Positions 8,453-63,045 of a DNA stretch of 64,000 bases are shown in pieces. Every line of letters begins with the position of its first letter. The first letter of the stretch is position 1. The notes beneath the pieces are model-generated. The model worked only from the letters and a program-made list of their open reading frames with translations, did not search any database and was not told the DNA's origin. Both the position numbers and the translations under genes were made by a program. Source of the stretch: Owenia fusiformis (Eukaryota > Annelida > Polychaeta > Sabellida > Oweniidae); the NCBI GenBank assembly GCA_903813345.2, contig CAIIXF020000009.1, positions 29,176,740 through 29,240,739 on the forward strand, read 5' to 3'.

Positions 8453-8750
8453 TATTCACTGCTACCCACCTAATTACACAGACGTATCGTCGGTGTATCA
8501 TGGCGGAACTTCCACCGGGACTAGGTTTCGGTAAGATTTTTTTATTTCCCGATTTACACCTACTTATAAGTCACGTTGTGGATAATAATTTGGCTCGAAG
8601 TTAAGGAAGATAGTCTAGTTTGAGAATATGTCGATGGTTTTAGGTTTTATATGTTAACAAAGACACAATTCACGTATTTAGTCCCGGAGGAAGTTCCGCC
8701 ATGATACACCGACGATACGTCTGTGTAATTAGGTGGGTAGCAGTGGATAT
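8453..8750. mobile_element. Fold-back element nested in the mariner body
   Basis: Arms of about 70 bp (8453-8522 and 8681-8750) are near-exact reverse complements, sharing CACTGCTACCCACCTAATTA, the adjoining CACAGACGTATCGTCGGTG block and ATGGCGGAACTTCC. The ~158-bp middle is A+T-rich. It interrupts the transposon between its left inverted repeat and the transposase remnant. The left arm carries ATG GCG GAA CTT followed about 40 bases later by GGTAAGA, which looks like a first exon with a donor site, but the open frame is too short to call a gene. Confidence 0.75.
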
Positions 8751-10669: not shown

Positions 10670-10955
10670 TTGTTCCAACGATGAGAATGTCAGAATGTCG
10701 TTATTTTCTGAAATTCTAAATGACCGTGAATACATAATCAACACTTCAAGGATTCATACAAATATCTCGATCACTACTTGCTACGTGTGCATTGGAATTC
10801 TTCGTTTGGAAATAAAACCAAAACTCGCGATTCAAATAATGAAGTGAACAAAATGGCGGCTATTTGAAACCGAATTTTGTAATCGCGACATCTCCATATA
10901 TGGCAGAATATCGAGTTGGAAGCCTGGGATCCAATCCTCTTTGGTCTACGGGCTC
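10670..10955 (+). repeat. Dispersed repeat family A, copy 1
   Basis: Direct, diverged match to 26165-26440. Shared blocks in the same order are GTCGTTATTTTCTGAAATT, a TCTCGATCA/TCTTGATCA block, CGATTCAAAT followed by GAAGTGAACAAAATGG, and CAGAATATCGA followed by CCAATCCTC. No coding potential is apparent. Confidence 0.75.
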
Positions 10956-32520: not shown

Positions 32521-33223
32521 CATAGTCATTAATCACGAAATGGACGTTTAATAAATCACAAAGTCACTTTACGAAATAACTTCCACTTCTACAAAATCCA
32601 CTAATATCCCTGAAAGCATAACTAATATGGGTGATGTCATTGACAACTCATATAGATGTCGGGTCAAAAGATGGGTTGTTACTTCCTGTTGTACTGAAAT
32701 ACAATTTAGATATTAATATTCTTCTAATCATGAATACAACCAATGTTATATTAATGAGCAATTATTAATGAAACCATTATCAGTTATTTCAGAGCTTTAT
32801 GCTTATAAAGTTGCATATTGCGCGTTTAGAGGGGAAGTGTGAGAAATGAGTGTGTGTTTTTCTTTGCATTAAATTATCACACGATCAATTTCTAAGTAGA
32901 TTTTAAGCAGATCTTATAAATTACATTAATAACGTGATATATAGAACTAAGGTCAATACTAATAATTCAGGCAATTTTCCTGAATTATTACCTGCATTGT
33001 ATAATTCAATTATAAATCCAGGTACTGTTTGATATTAGACAGAGAAAATATAATAATAAGTTAGTTACAGTTACATTTTACTTTCTTCTTTTTCTTTCTC
33101 TTGCGATGTAATATTGAACGGTAGATAACCGTTTCAATGTTAAAATTTATATAGTAGTGCAAACTAGGGTAAAAAATGACACAGACATCTAGCTTTCCAA
33201 CGATGTATTGGGACTTTAGTGCA
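32521..33223. other. No feature recognised
   Basis: Plain A+T-rich sequence up to the target duplication of the next element. Confidence 0.45.
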
Positions 33224-33242
33224 GATGGCACGGTGTATAACC

Positions 33243-34509
33243 CAAACGCTCCTACATGCACGACGGAGCGTTTCATTTACGCGGAAACGCTCCGAAGCGA
33301 AATAAAATGGCGGCTAATGAAGATTCCACTATGACCGTAAGTATTGTTTCTCTCGTTTCTCTTACATATCATATGTTATGGTGAAATATTATGTACCATT
33401 CGATGAACAATATCGTGAGCAAAGATCTTATTTATTCAACTTCTGGTGGTAAACTGTTATTTGCTTGATCAAAGCTCCGTAGTGTAGATCGAACGAATCT
33501 GAAGATGACGATTTGACCACAAATTACGAATTAAACTAGTATTTGTATGAAAACGTTAATGTTTCTGTTAAAGTAGTATATCACAAACTCGTATATTCTC
33601 ATTTCTTAAAATCCCAGTCCAAATCCATTACTTGTTCTCAAGAAATCGCTTGTTTTCCTCGAAACGCTCCGTCGATTTAGAACACAATTTTAGAAACGCT
33701 CTTACCATTTTGTTTTGATATCATTTTCAGATTATTAGAGAAGAGTTCCGAATCGAATCTATCTCTCAAAAACGTGTTGTACTTGTTAGGCAAATTGAAA
33801 CATCTGAACCTGGTGGTGCTAAACGTGCAACTAGCTGATTTAAGCCTACATTAGATGATGTCATGCCTACATGTGTGCTAGATCATAAAACTATAGAAAA
33901 AAACGAAAATTAATATGTGAATTAATCTTTCTTCTTTTGATGCCAAGGGGTATAATAGATCTTAATTTCTTTCTCTTCCTGAAAAGGAAAGGCAAGCTAT
34001 ATATTTCCTAAACAGATCTAGACTACCGGAGCGTTTCCAGTTCACTGTGTTAACCAGATCGGAGCGTTTCTTGAATATGAGAATGTCATCATTTTTAAGA
34101 CTGGATTTTCGGTCATCAAATCAGTATTACGATAATGTATGGTGCGTTGAAGCATTGGAATTTGACTAAAATATACGTTGGTGCTCTAATCTTGGCTCAA
34201 CTAATCACATGTATCGACAAAATGGGTTTTGACCGGTAGAATGACCAATACGTTTTTGGATTTCGTTAACTATACTGCTTCGTACAGCTCTTCCTAATTG
34301 CTTCAAACGTCAACAGCCAGCCAAGTACAACATGAATATCACACCCATCGAATGGTATACTCGAAATATGTAACTCATACCTCTTGTTCCCATTATTGGG
34401 GAAATCGTCAGACGGCTCATCATTCCCACCAGCCAGTTTTCCTACTCCGGAGCGTTTCTTTGTTTAATTTCAGTACTGAAACGCTCCGTCGTGCATGTAG
34501 GAGCGTTTG
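33243..34509. repeat. Ten subterminal GAAACGCTCC-type motifs
   Basis: Positions: 33243-33252, 33265-33274 (minus), 33284-33293, 33661-33670, 33693-33702 (last bases differ), 34028-34037 (minus), 34061-34070 (minus), 34449-34458 (minus), 34478-34487, 34500-34509 (minus). Six keep the full GAAACGCTCC or its complement plus a G next to it. Within each terminal repeat two copies face each other across 12 bases, forming a hairpin. Clusters like this usually act as transposase-binding sites in DNA transposons; that role is inferred. Confidence 0.85.
33307..33838 (+). CDS. Possible two-exon small ORF inside the transposon
   Basis: Exon 1 (33307-33336) reads MAANEDSTMT from an ATG in the context AAAATGGCGG and ends exactly at GTAAGT, a strong donor. 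The intron is 33337-33730 and ends TTTTCAG. Exon 2 (33731-33838) continues in phase, starting IIREEFRIESISQKR, and stops at TGA, giving 45 residues. If the TGA is read past, the frame goes on for another 24 codons to a TAA, so the present stop may be a mutation in a longer protein. I recognise no domain; it could be the 5' remnant of the element's own transposase gene. Splice signals are seen, expression is not. Confidence 0.35.
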
Positions 34510-34528
34510 GGTTATACACCGTGGATGG

Positions 34529-36454
34529 GGTCATTTATTTTTCACTAATGAGCACTTAGAAGCTCTACTTCGCACAAGTATTTTTTGTTCGAATTAAGCA
34601 GAACACATTTTCATGTTCTACCGCACAGCTCCGTTACTAAATGAAATGTATTGCTATCGCACCAATGTGTCAATTTAGAATATATGATTTCTTTCATTTA
34701 AATAGATTGTTAGTATTATAGGGCCAGGACTTTTAATATGCTTAGGCGGATGTAGAGGTCTCGTGATTTATGCCTTGATTTTCTTGCATGGAGGAATATT
34801 GTTTATTTTGTAGCATTAATGAAGATTATATCATTGTGTCGATTCGTGTAAGCCGGAGATATAAATCAAATACATCGGCAGCCAGAAATCCTATTTAGAT
34901 AAAGATTTTTAATATTAGCTGCTTTTAATCAAATGTGTCACTGGAAAAACCTTTCCTCCATCAATCGGTGAAGCAAATTTTAAATATCTGGACATTTCCC
35001 CGGGTTTTCTTTTAATATGAATATGAAAAGATGGTCCGATGGTTGTGATATGACATGAGTTATTATCGATATACCGTCTGGATTACTAGTATGATTATTG
35101 AAGGCTTAAAAGCCCCAGGTTAGCCATTTGATATCTTCTCAAGAAATCTCGCCTGGAGATCGGAGATATCTATATCTATCGGAGCTTCCCACTAGCTGGC
35201 ATATGGTTAAGGTCAAGAATAAGAACAAGAAATAAGTAAATGCTTTATTTAGATGATACGGCATTGGAAATAAAATGTGAAGAATACCAATTGGAATACT
35301 TCTGAGGTACGTTTAATCATTTATCAAACAAAAAGGTTTGAATAAAAGTAATATCTGGTAACTACGGTACTGTTCTAGTAAAATCGAGAGGTAGATTGCA
35401 GGTTTGTTTGAAGTGATCTTTTATAGGCGATTAGACAGATTTGCCGAACTAAATATCGATTTATATGGCCTAACGGATTTGACTTTTGCTATCAACACTT
35501 ATATTTATTAACAGTTTGACTTATGTTTTCTTTCTATGATAGATGTCTTATCATTGCTAAAAAGTCTCTCCTTGCCATAACATGACCGTGAGTTTGAATT
35601 TTAACATCATTCATTTGAGATCAAGTTTTGCATATTCCCTGCCTATTTGCTTATCAATATTACAATAAGATATTACATTGGTGGGAAATTATGGGTACTA
35701 GATTAGATTAGACTAGTGTGGTTGGATGCCTTAAAAAATAGAATATGATGGAAAATTGTGTGACTCCTATGATATTATTTATATTGTATATGTTAATGTA
35801 ATTGCTTTCAAATGTTTTTTCAATGAATAAAAAAAAAGTTTTGCATATTGATAAACTGATATTGATATGGGCATCTATGGTGGTTTCGTTTGTATTTTTT
35901 ACATTCTGGACCTTTTTAAATATATTTTATGGTATCAGGGGTTTTGCCTGATTCTAAATAATCACATATAAGTTGCAAAACCTTTTTCTACAAACTTTCA
36001 ATTTCTGAAAATTGTCAAAAAACATGCGATTTTCAAATTTGAAGTTGACGTGACTCATCATTTTCACTTTTAAAGGAAATTATTTCACTTACCAGGTATA
36101 TGACCATATTTTCGATTTTCAACAAGGTGTGCTATTATTTACAATTAAACCCCACTTAGGTAGCAACACAATAGAATGAACTGTAGTTTATTTTAAAAAG
36201 TGTACAGTTGTAACGAAGAAGGGTGCTTCTTTGTTCTATTGTTTTTAAAGAATATACACTTGACACGCTATCCAAAACAAGTGTGTTACAAAAGACGATG
36301 GACAGTTTTTGATATTTTCCATTATTTAAAATCAATAATGGAACTTCGTTATTATGTATAGTTACAAAAATAAAACAATTTATCAAGTTATGCTGTTGTA
36401 TTGATCTAAGATTACTTACAAATTGTGCTCCACCCATGCTCAATGTTTACACAT
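34529..36454. other. No gene recognised
   Basis: A+T-rich. The phrase GAGATATAAATCAAAT is shared between about 34857 and 30887, too short to define a repeat. Confidence 0.45.
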
Positions 36455-62211: not shown

Positions 62212-63045
62212 TCACAGGCTGGTATCGAAATATTTGTCCGCTGTGACGGAGTATGCTATTTTTCATAAAAACACTAAGAATACTTCACGATTTATTTTTT
62301 AACTCATATGTTTCGTTATACCATACAAAATTACTTACTCCATGCAATGGATATATCATTTGCGGGTAACTTTCACTTCTGTTTGAAGTCCAATTGCGCT
62401 GGGAAGAAAAGCTATTGAAAATGACGCCGGAGTATCATACTTCAAAATGTAGCATTTCTTGTTTAACTTTCTAATGGCACGATATAGTGACACGATAATA
62501 TTGAAACATGGTTTCAGCATTATTATTATGAAGGTATAAATGGGATTTTGGTGTATTTGGTCTTTTCAACTCTTTTATGAAAAATAATGTTTAATTTTTT
62601 TGTCCGCTGTGGCCGAGCAGTTGCAAATGTGAACTGTGAAAATGCTCCGTCACAGCGGACAAAAATATAAATATTATTTTTTATAAAAAAATTAAAAAGA
62701 CCCAATGCATTAATATCTCATTAATACATCCAGAGTTATGCTGAAAACATTATGTAAATAGTATCGTGTCACTATATCATGCCATTAAAAAGTTAAAAAA
62801 GAAATGGTACATTTTAGAGTTTGATACTCTGGCGCCGTTTTCAATAGATTTTTCCTAGCGTTATTGGACTTCAAACAGAAGTGAAGGTTACACGCAAATG
62901 ATATATCCATTGCATGGAGTAAGTAATTATCTTTGATATAACGAAACATATGAGTTAAAGAATAAATCGTGAAGCATTCTTAGTGTTTTTATGAAAAATA
63001 GCATGCTCCGTCACAGCGGACAAATCTTTCGATACCAGCCTGTGA
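62212..63045. mobile_element. 834-bp palindrome, ~400-bp arms, motif at every arm end
   Basis: 62212-62617 and 62645-63045 are reverse complements with scattered substitutions; the outer tips read TCACAGGCTGGTATCGAAA. The motif TTTGTCCGCTGTGACGGAG stands at the outer and inner end of both arms: 62233-62251, 62599-62617 (one base pair of changes, GTGGCCGAG), 62645-62663 (minus) and 63006-63024 (minus). The 27-base centre is GTTGCAAATGTGAACTGTG... . No coding frame of note. It is probably a fold-back/large-TIR MITE; a 3-bp ATA at both flanks is the only duplication seen. Confidence 0.85.

Follow-up and report, generated by a model that had tools for sequence, protein, structure and literature searches.

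Transib transposons carry a terminal heptamer with the consensus CACWATG, and the consensus RSS heptamer is CACAGTG. In hAT elements, subterminal and internal repeats are usual. Ends starting with CAC and target-site duplications of 5 bp have been reported for both Transib and RAGL elements (PMC7204232, PMC8355894, PMC4411706). The ProtoRAG heptamer has been given as CACTATG, and in the same account most Transib terminal inverted repeats (TIRs) are without a nonamer and a preference for G+C is reported for the duplications of ProtoRAG, Transib and RAG (PMC8289069). For the TIRs of protostome RAGL elements the consensus CACTWMCAAACKTYKBB has been published (PMC7204232), and a genome is described as typically containing a single autonomous Transib or a few of them (PMC4411706). 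The CMCT lineages are reported to have mostly CA..TG ends and duplications of 2-5 bp, and those hAT families that duplicate 5 bp and 6 bp are termed hAT5 and hAT6, hAT5 being defined by its 5 bp (PMC12730594).

The window, i.e. the whole 64-kb stretch of DNA analysed, has a G+C content of 34 % and contains a 1295-bp transposon at 33229-34523, the ends of which, read directly from the letters, are CACGGTG...CACCGTG. The target-site duplication GATGG, also read directly, is found on the left at 33224-33228 and on the right at 34524-34528. The left TIR (33229-33275, + strand) has CACGGTG as its first letters, and in the arm comparison it was 100 % complementary over 47 nt to the right TIR (34477-34523, - strand). 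The original prediction had described perfect 47-bp inverted repeats, CACGGTG termini and GATGG on both sides, all of which were confirmed. No recognisable transposase is present in the internal region (33276-34476), and an Rfam search of 33000-34800 at gathering cut-offs gave no match. The motif GGAGCGTTT occurs nine times, in both orientations, between 33244 and 34508 (at 33244-, 33265+, 33285-, 33662-, 34028+, 34061+, 34449+, 34479- and 34500+), and four of the nine copies sit within the TIRs. These are all the copies in the 64-kb window, every one within 33229-34523, compared with 0.13 expected, and at least nine were seen in 0 of 100 shuffles; the repeats are candidate protein-binding sites. 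Near the left end, AAATGGCGGC at 33305-33314 is similar to a YY1 site, with further copies at 10851 and 14271, compared with an expectation of 0.06 for the window. Lancelet ProtoRAG TIRs have been reported to bind YY1 (PMC7481187).

The genome searched comprises 498 Mb in 525 contigs, of which the twelve contigs C1-C12 are 32-62 Mb each and together make up about 477 Mb. A search with the element end had been proposed originally, and when the first 24 bp of the TIR were used with at most 3 mismatches, 344 forward and 345 reverse matches were found. The reversed pattern gave 0 matches, and the TIR is therefore not due to chance. Further families, which would keep the 13-bp start and none of the next 3 bases, were also sought and rejected, as there were 3 matches compared with 9 in the control. 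The search with the whole element gave 630 candidates, and the best 40 that were scored each had at least 94 % identity; 38 of these, including the window copy, were near full length and 2 were partial. The window copy and 39 fetched copies were aligned, four of the 40 rows covering only part of the element. The consensus of the 40 rows is 1292 bp, and the rows differ from it by 1.2-2.5 % (mean 1.65 %), the mean pairwise divergence among the aligned copies being 2.95 %. Many substitutions (505 of 842) are common to at least two rows, and some to about 12 of the 40, so that more than one source copy was probably active in the family. The identical ends of the window copy had been taken to suggest recent activity. 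This argument turned out to be weak, as the arms are perfect in 13 of 38 copies. The window copy carries 16 substitutions relative to the consensus, and 8 of these are seen in no other of the 40 aligned rows, so that it is young but not special, and particular recency does not follow for it.

Duplication of 5 bp, originally seen at one locus, proved to be a trait of the family, as it was present in 47 of the 51 copies having both ends when two sets were pooled. In the first set both ends were found by the criterion used in 38 of 40 copies, and 35 of these had a 5-bp duplication and 3 had none. The second set consisted of 18 loci, 13 with both ends and five with only one end within the fetched stretch, and 12 of the 13 had the 5-bp duplication. 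At the junctions of the four copies without it there was no repeat of 2-11 bp (the three of the first set) or 2-9 bp (the one of the second set). In a few A+T-rich cases the match at 5 bp is accompanied by one at 2, 3, 7 or 9 bp, which is how simple repeats behave. The target duplications of the family are A+T-biased: G or C accounts for 59 of the 235 bases in the 47 duplications (25 %), compared with 34 % across 7,020 flanking bases (two-sided binomial p = 0.003, bases treated as independent), and position 2 is A or T in 42 of 47. The tabulation of flanking 5-mers that had been suggested thus bore out the 5-bp length, and the bias was opposite to that reported for Transib, RAG and ProtoRAG (PMC8289069).

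A longer, autonomous copy was sought among about 100 exact TIR places listed on C1, C2 and C3 (up to 17.8 Mb), and none was found there; nor was a recognisable transposase found in any copy examined. Longer copies, which the original prediction had expected to be informative, do exist, but among the places listed the two widest TIR pairs, L040 and L041 (2.8 and 2.1 kb between the ends), were rejected as autonomous elements, being ordinary copies that hold unrelated nested insertions and no transposase. The two inserts lie at nearly one position, the similarity between them is no more than expected by chance, and one of them, as judged by eye, is a repeat whose ends resemble TATGTCCCCAC. The other, at 794-1571 of L041, is by eye a nested element that is bounded by CCGTATT...AATACGG and has duplicated TA. 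Seven unpaired ends (L045-L051) were retrieved together with some 4.2 kb on their inner side, and five were ordinary copies, while the L049 copy runs into a satellite array and the L047 copy is broken off at position 207. The satellite in L049, with units of roughly 160-170 bp by eye, begins inside the transposon copy at about 300 and fills the remaining 4 kb or so of the fetched stretch. A 524-aa glycosyltransferase family 92 frame (PF01697, 5.8e-36) adjoins the broken-off copy in L047, at 531-2102 on the - strand. The TIR was also searched for in viral contigs, with no match. Neither of the findings that had been named as speaking against the original prediction was encountered, i.e. there was no other transposase in the copies examined and no duplication of another length.

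Coding content was correspondingly small. The longest stop-to-stop frame in the window stretch is 99 aa and extends beyond the right end of the element, while the longest is 88 aa in the consensus of the 40 rows and 111 aa in L041, where it lies within the insert. Seven ORFs, four from the window and three from L040 and L041, gave nothing above the curated cut-off in a Pfam scan. An exon-like start, MAANEDSTMT (33307-33336, + strand; 10 codons from ATG), is followed by GTAAGT, and a putative second part, IIREEFRIESISQKRVVLVRQIETSEPGGAKRATS (33731-33838, + strand), follows TTTTCAG and has 35 codons and then a stop; no transcript was seen. The resulting spliced-looking frame of 45 aa reads MAANEDSTMT-IIREEFRIESISQKRVVLVRQIETSEPGGAKRATS. 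It gave 366 candidates in the genome, the best 150 of which were scored and were 89-97 % identical, and it had no match in a Pfam search. It was rejected as a selected gene, since 33 of 38 copies have preserved it, close to the 85 % neutral expectation, and there is thus no sign of selection. Possibly an ancestral gene left this frame behind as a remnant.

Taken together, 33229-34523 is very probably a non-autonomous cut-and-paste DNA transposon belonging to a family of roughly 340 copies and moved in trans. The inverted ends, the duplications of fixed length, the many copies and the lack of a transposase in the copies examined are those of a non-autonomous TIR element. We infer movement in trans because no source element or transposase was found. 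Against the cut-and-paste reading, the duplication is missing in 4 of 51 copies; no other length stands in for it there. In the proposed mechanism, a DDE transposase whose gene lies, or once lay, elsewhere would bind the TIRs and probably also the GGAGCGTTT repeats, and would cut the element out at CAC...GTG. The element would then be joined to target strands staggered by 5 bp, and host repair would create the 5-bp duplications. The original prediction was of a recent, non-autonomous RAG/Transib-like member. The non-autonomous nature, the multiple copies, the CAC...GTG ends and the 5 bp stood, while kinship beyond CAC and 5 bp, and special recency, did not.

The enzyme that moves the family may be a Transib or RAG1L transposase that cuts at the heptamer-like CACGGTG, an assignment we consider plausible but tentative. 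It agrees with the CAC start and the 5-bp duplications of the copies, and the CMCT lineages, as reported, have similar ends and duplications of 2-5 bp (PMC12730594). A missing source would be unsurprising, given the low copy number typically reported for autonomous Transibs (PMC4411706). Six RAG1/Transib searches of the genome gave no transposase; for none of them did a genome known to contain the gene serve as positive control. The PF12940 profile had no match in this genome, nor in 14 control genomes. A Transib motif peptide likewise had no match in a genome search the sensitivity of which lacks a control; the peptide itself is sound, since it retrieves HzTransib in PDB at 1.6e-15. A 136-aa stretch of the solved HzTransib, run without a positive control, did not match the genome either. 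The degenerate DNA pattern for E-E-A-x-E-x-x-N-K gave 3 matches, compared with 4 in the reversed control, and all three were rejected as transposase: one belongs to a TPR motif (PF13181, above the cut-off), another to a frame next to that of a LINE-type endonuclease (PF03372), and the last is similar to the LINE-adjacent one but is broken by stops. The RAG1L pattern E-G-x-E-x-G-N-K-[LF] gave 0 matches and its reversed control 0, with no positive control. The pattern E-x-x-E-[AGSCW]-[RS]-N-K gave 28 matches and the reversed control 28. Five of these, four E-A-R-E-C-[RS]-N-K and one E-A-L-E-W-S-N-K, were read in context, and none was transposase-like, stops being close by in each of these five frames; the other 23 were viewed as 24 letters only. 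Such DNA patterns are blind to a transposase motif that is altered or split by an intron. A Transib scan of the viral contigs also gave no match. An RSS-like 12/23 layout was rejected, as no nonamer match within the TIR exceeds 6/9, which is reached at spacer 4, and there is none at spacer 12 or 23. The missing nonamer counts only against that layout, because most Transib TIRs are reported to be without one as well (PMC8289069). The G-G of the heptamer and the 25 % G+C of the duplications also speak against a Transib or RAG1L enzyme.

Less probably, and in our view somewhat doubtfully, the mover belongs to an undescribed CAC-ended lineage that favours A+T-rich 5-bp targets and is common to this family and to a second high-copy family in the window. 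The second element lies at 62213-63044, has the ends CACAGGCTGG... and an AATAT duplication, and is nearly palindromic over its whole length, reverse-strand matches being 85-87 %. Its search gave 1,579 first-look candidates, of which the best 40 were scored. This family starts with CACAGG, so that a CACRG start is common to both families, and a 5-bp duplication was present in 19 of 20 fetched copies; when these 19 and the window's own were counted, G or C was found at 17 of 100 bases. Beyond CACRG, however, no terminal sequence was seen in common between the two families, and the CAC agreement may be convergence. No enzyme was found for such a lineage. In a more specific and rather unlikely form of this idea, both CACRG families would belong to an undescribed relative of the RAG, Transib and CACTA enzymes, one that retained the CAC cut and the 5-bp stagger but acquired a different heptamer, different preferred targets and a different version of the conserved motif that surrounds the last catalytic glutamate. 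The window also contains a small element at 8457-8745, which has inverted repeats of 57 bp and CACTGCTACC ends and is flanked on each side by the 6-bp repeat GATATT. Its left part, ATGGCGGAA... followed by GTAAG, resembles the start of the 33229-34523 element.

A hAT5-type transposase, for which the AAACGCTCC repeats would be subterminal binding sites, is an unlikely mover. The 5-bp duplications by which hAT5 is defined (PMC12730594) are in its favour, and hAT genes are abundant, the PF05699 profile having 147 matches in the genome. The CACGG-type ends of the element were however absent from the 1.8 kb downstream of all 40 hAT loci fetched of the 147 listed. Near matches to the 13-bp end at these loci numbered 2 at two mismatches and 6 at three or fewer, compared with 2 and 25 in the reversed control, and the best BLAST match of the ends had an E value of 0.059. 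For 17 of the 40 loci, 3.5 kb upstream was added and paired ends starting with CA or TA and having duplications of 8, 6 or 5 bp were sought. Six loci had such pairs, four with 8 bp and TAG ends, one with 6 bp and one with 5 bp, and 11 had none. In a control scan that used reversed, non-complementary arms, 4 pairs emerged, three with 5 bp and one with 6 bp; each had three mismatches in 14, a poorer fit than that of the real 5-bp pair (one mismatch) and 6-bp pair (none). The 5-bp pair, L092 with L135, is a hAT fragment with an AATAG duplication and the ends CAGTGGCGTAGCTA / CAGAGGCGTAGCTA, which agree at 13/14, and is possibly of the hAT5 type. The 6-bp pair, L097 with L139, is a hAT element that has CAGTGATGTTGATA at both ends (14/14) and is possibly of the hAT6 type. 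It seems from this single example that a 5-bp-type hAT element exists in the genome and starts with CAG. The 5-bp element starts with CAGTGGCGTAGC and the 6-bp one with CAGTGATG, neither of them CAC, and each is represented by one element.

That something else altogether moves the family is improbable. If a Transib-branch enzyme is behind it, the relatives of the V(D)J recombinase would gain a family of high copy number whose heptamer, CACGGTG, is close to that of the RSS. As it stands, the family is one more non-autonomous family and a reason for caution on RAG kinship, since a CAC end and 5 bp alone are no proof of it when hAT5 elements also make 5-bp duplications.

Compared with hAT5, the element is alike in its 5-bp duplications and in having a repeated internal motif, and differs in starting with CAC instead of the CAG of the single 5-bp hAT element of this genome. 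With RAGL and ProtoRAG it shares the CAC start and the 5-bp duplications, but its heptamer has G-G where ProtoRAG has T-A at positions 4-5, its TIR agrees by eye with the RAGL consensus of protostomes in 5 of 17 positions, and the searches, run without a positive control, found no RAG1L gene for it. With Transib it shares the CAC start, the TIRs and the 5-bp duplication (47 of 51 copies). Its heptamer agrees with that of Transib in CAC and the final T-G and departs from it in having G-G for W-A at positions 4-5, its duplications are A+T-biased where those of Transib are reported to favour G+C, and no transposase was found for it in searches that likewise had no positive control. We do not file the element as Transib because of heptamer positions 4-5, the 5/17 fit to RAGL and the A+T-biased duplications; it can be described as Transib-like in its stagger and its CAC end.
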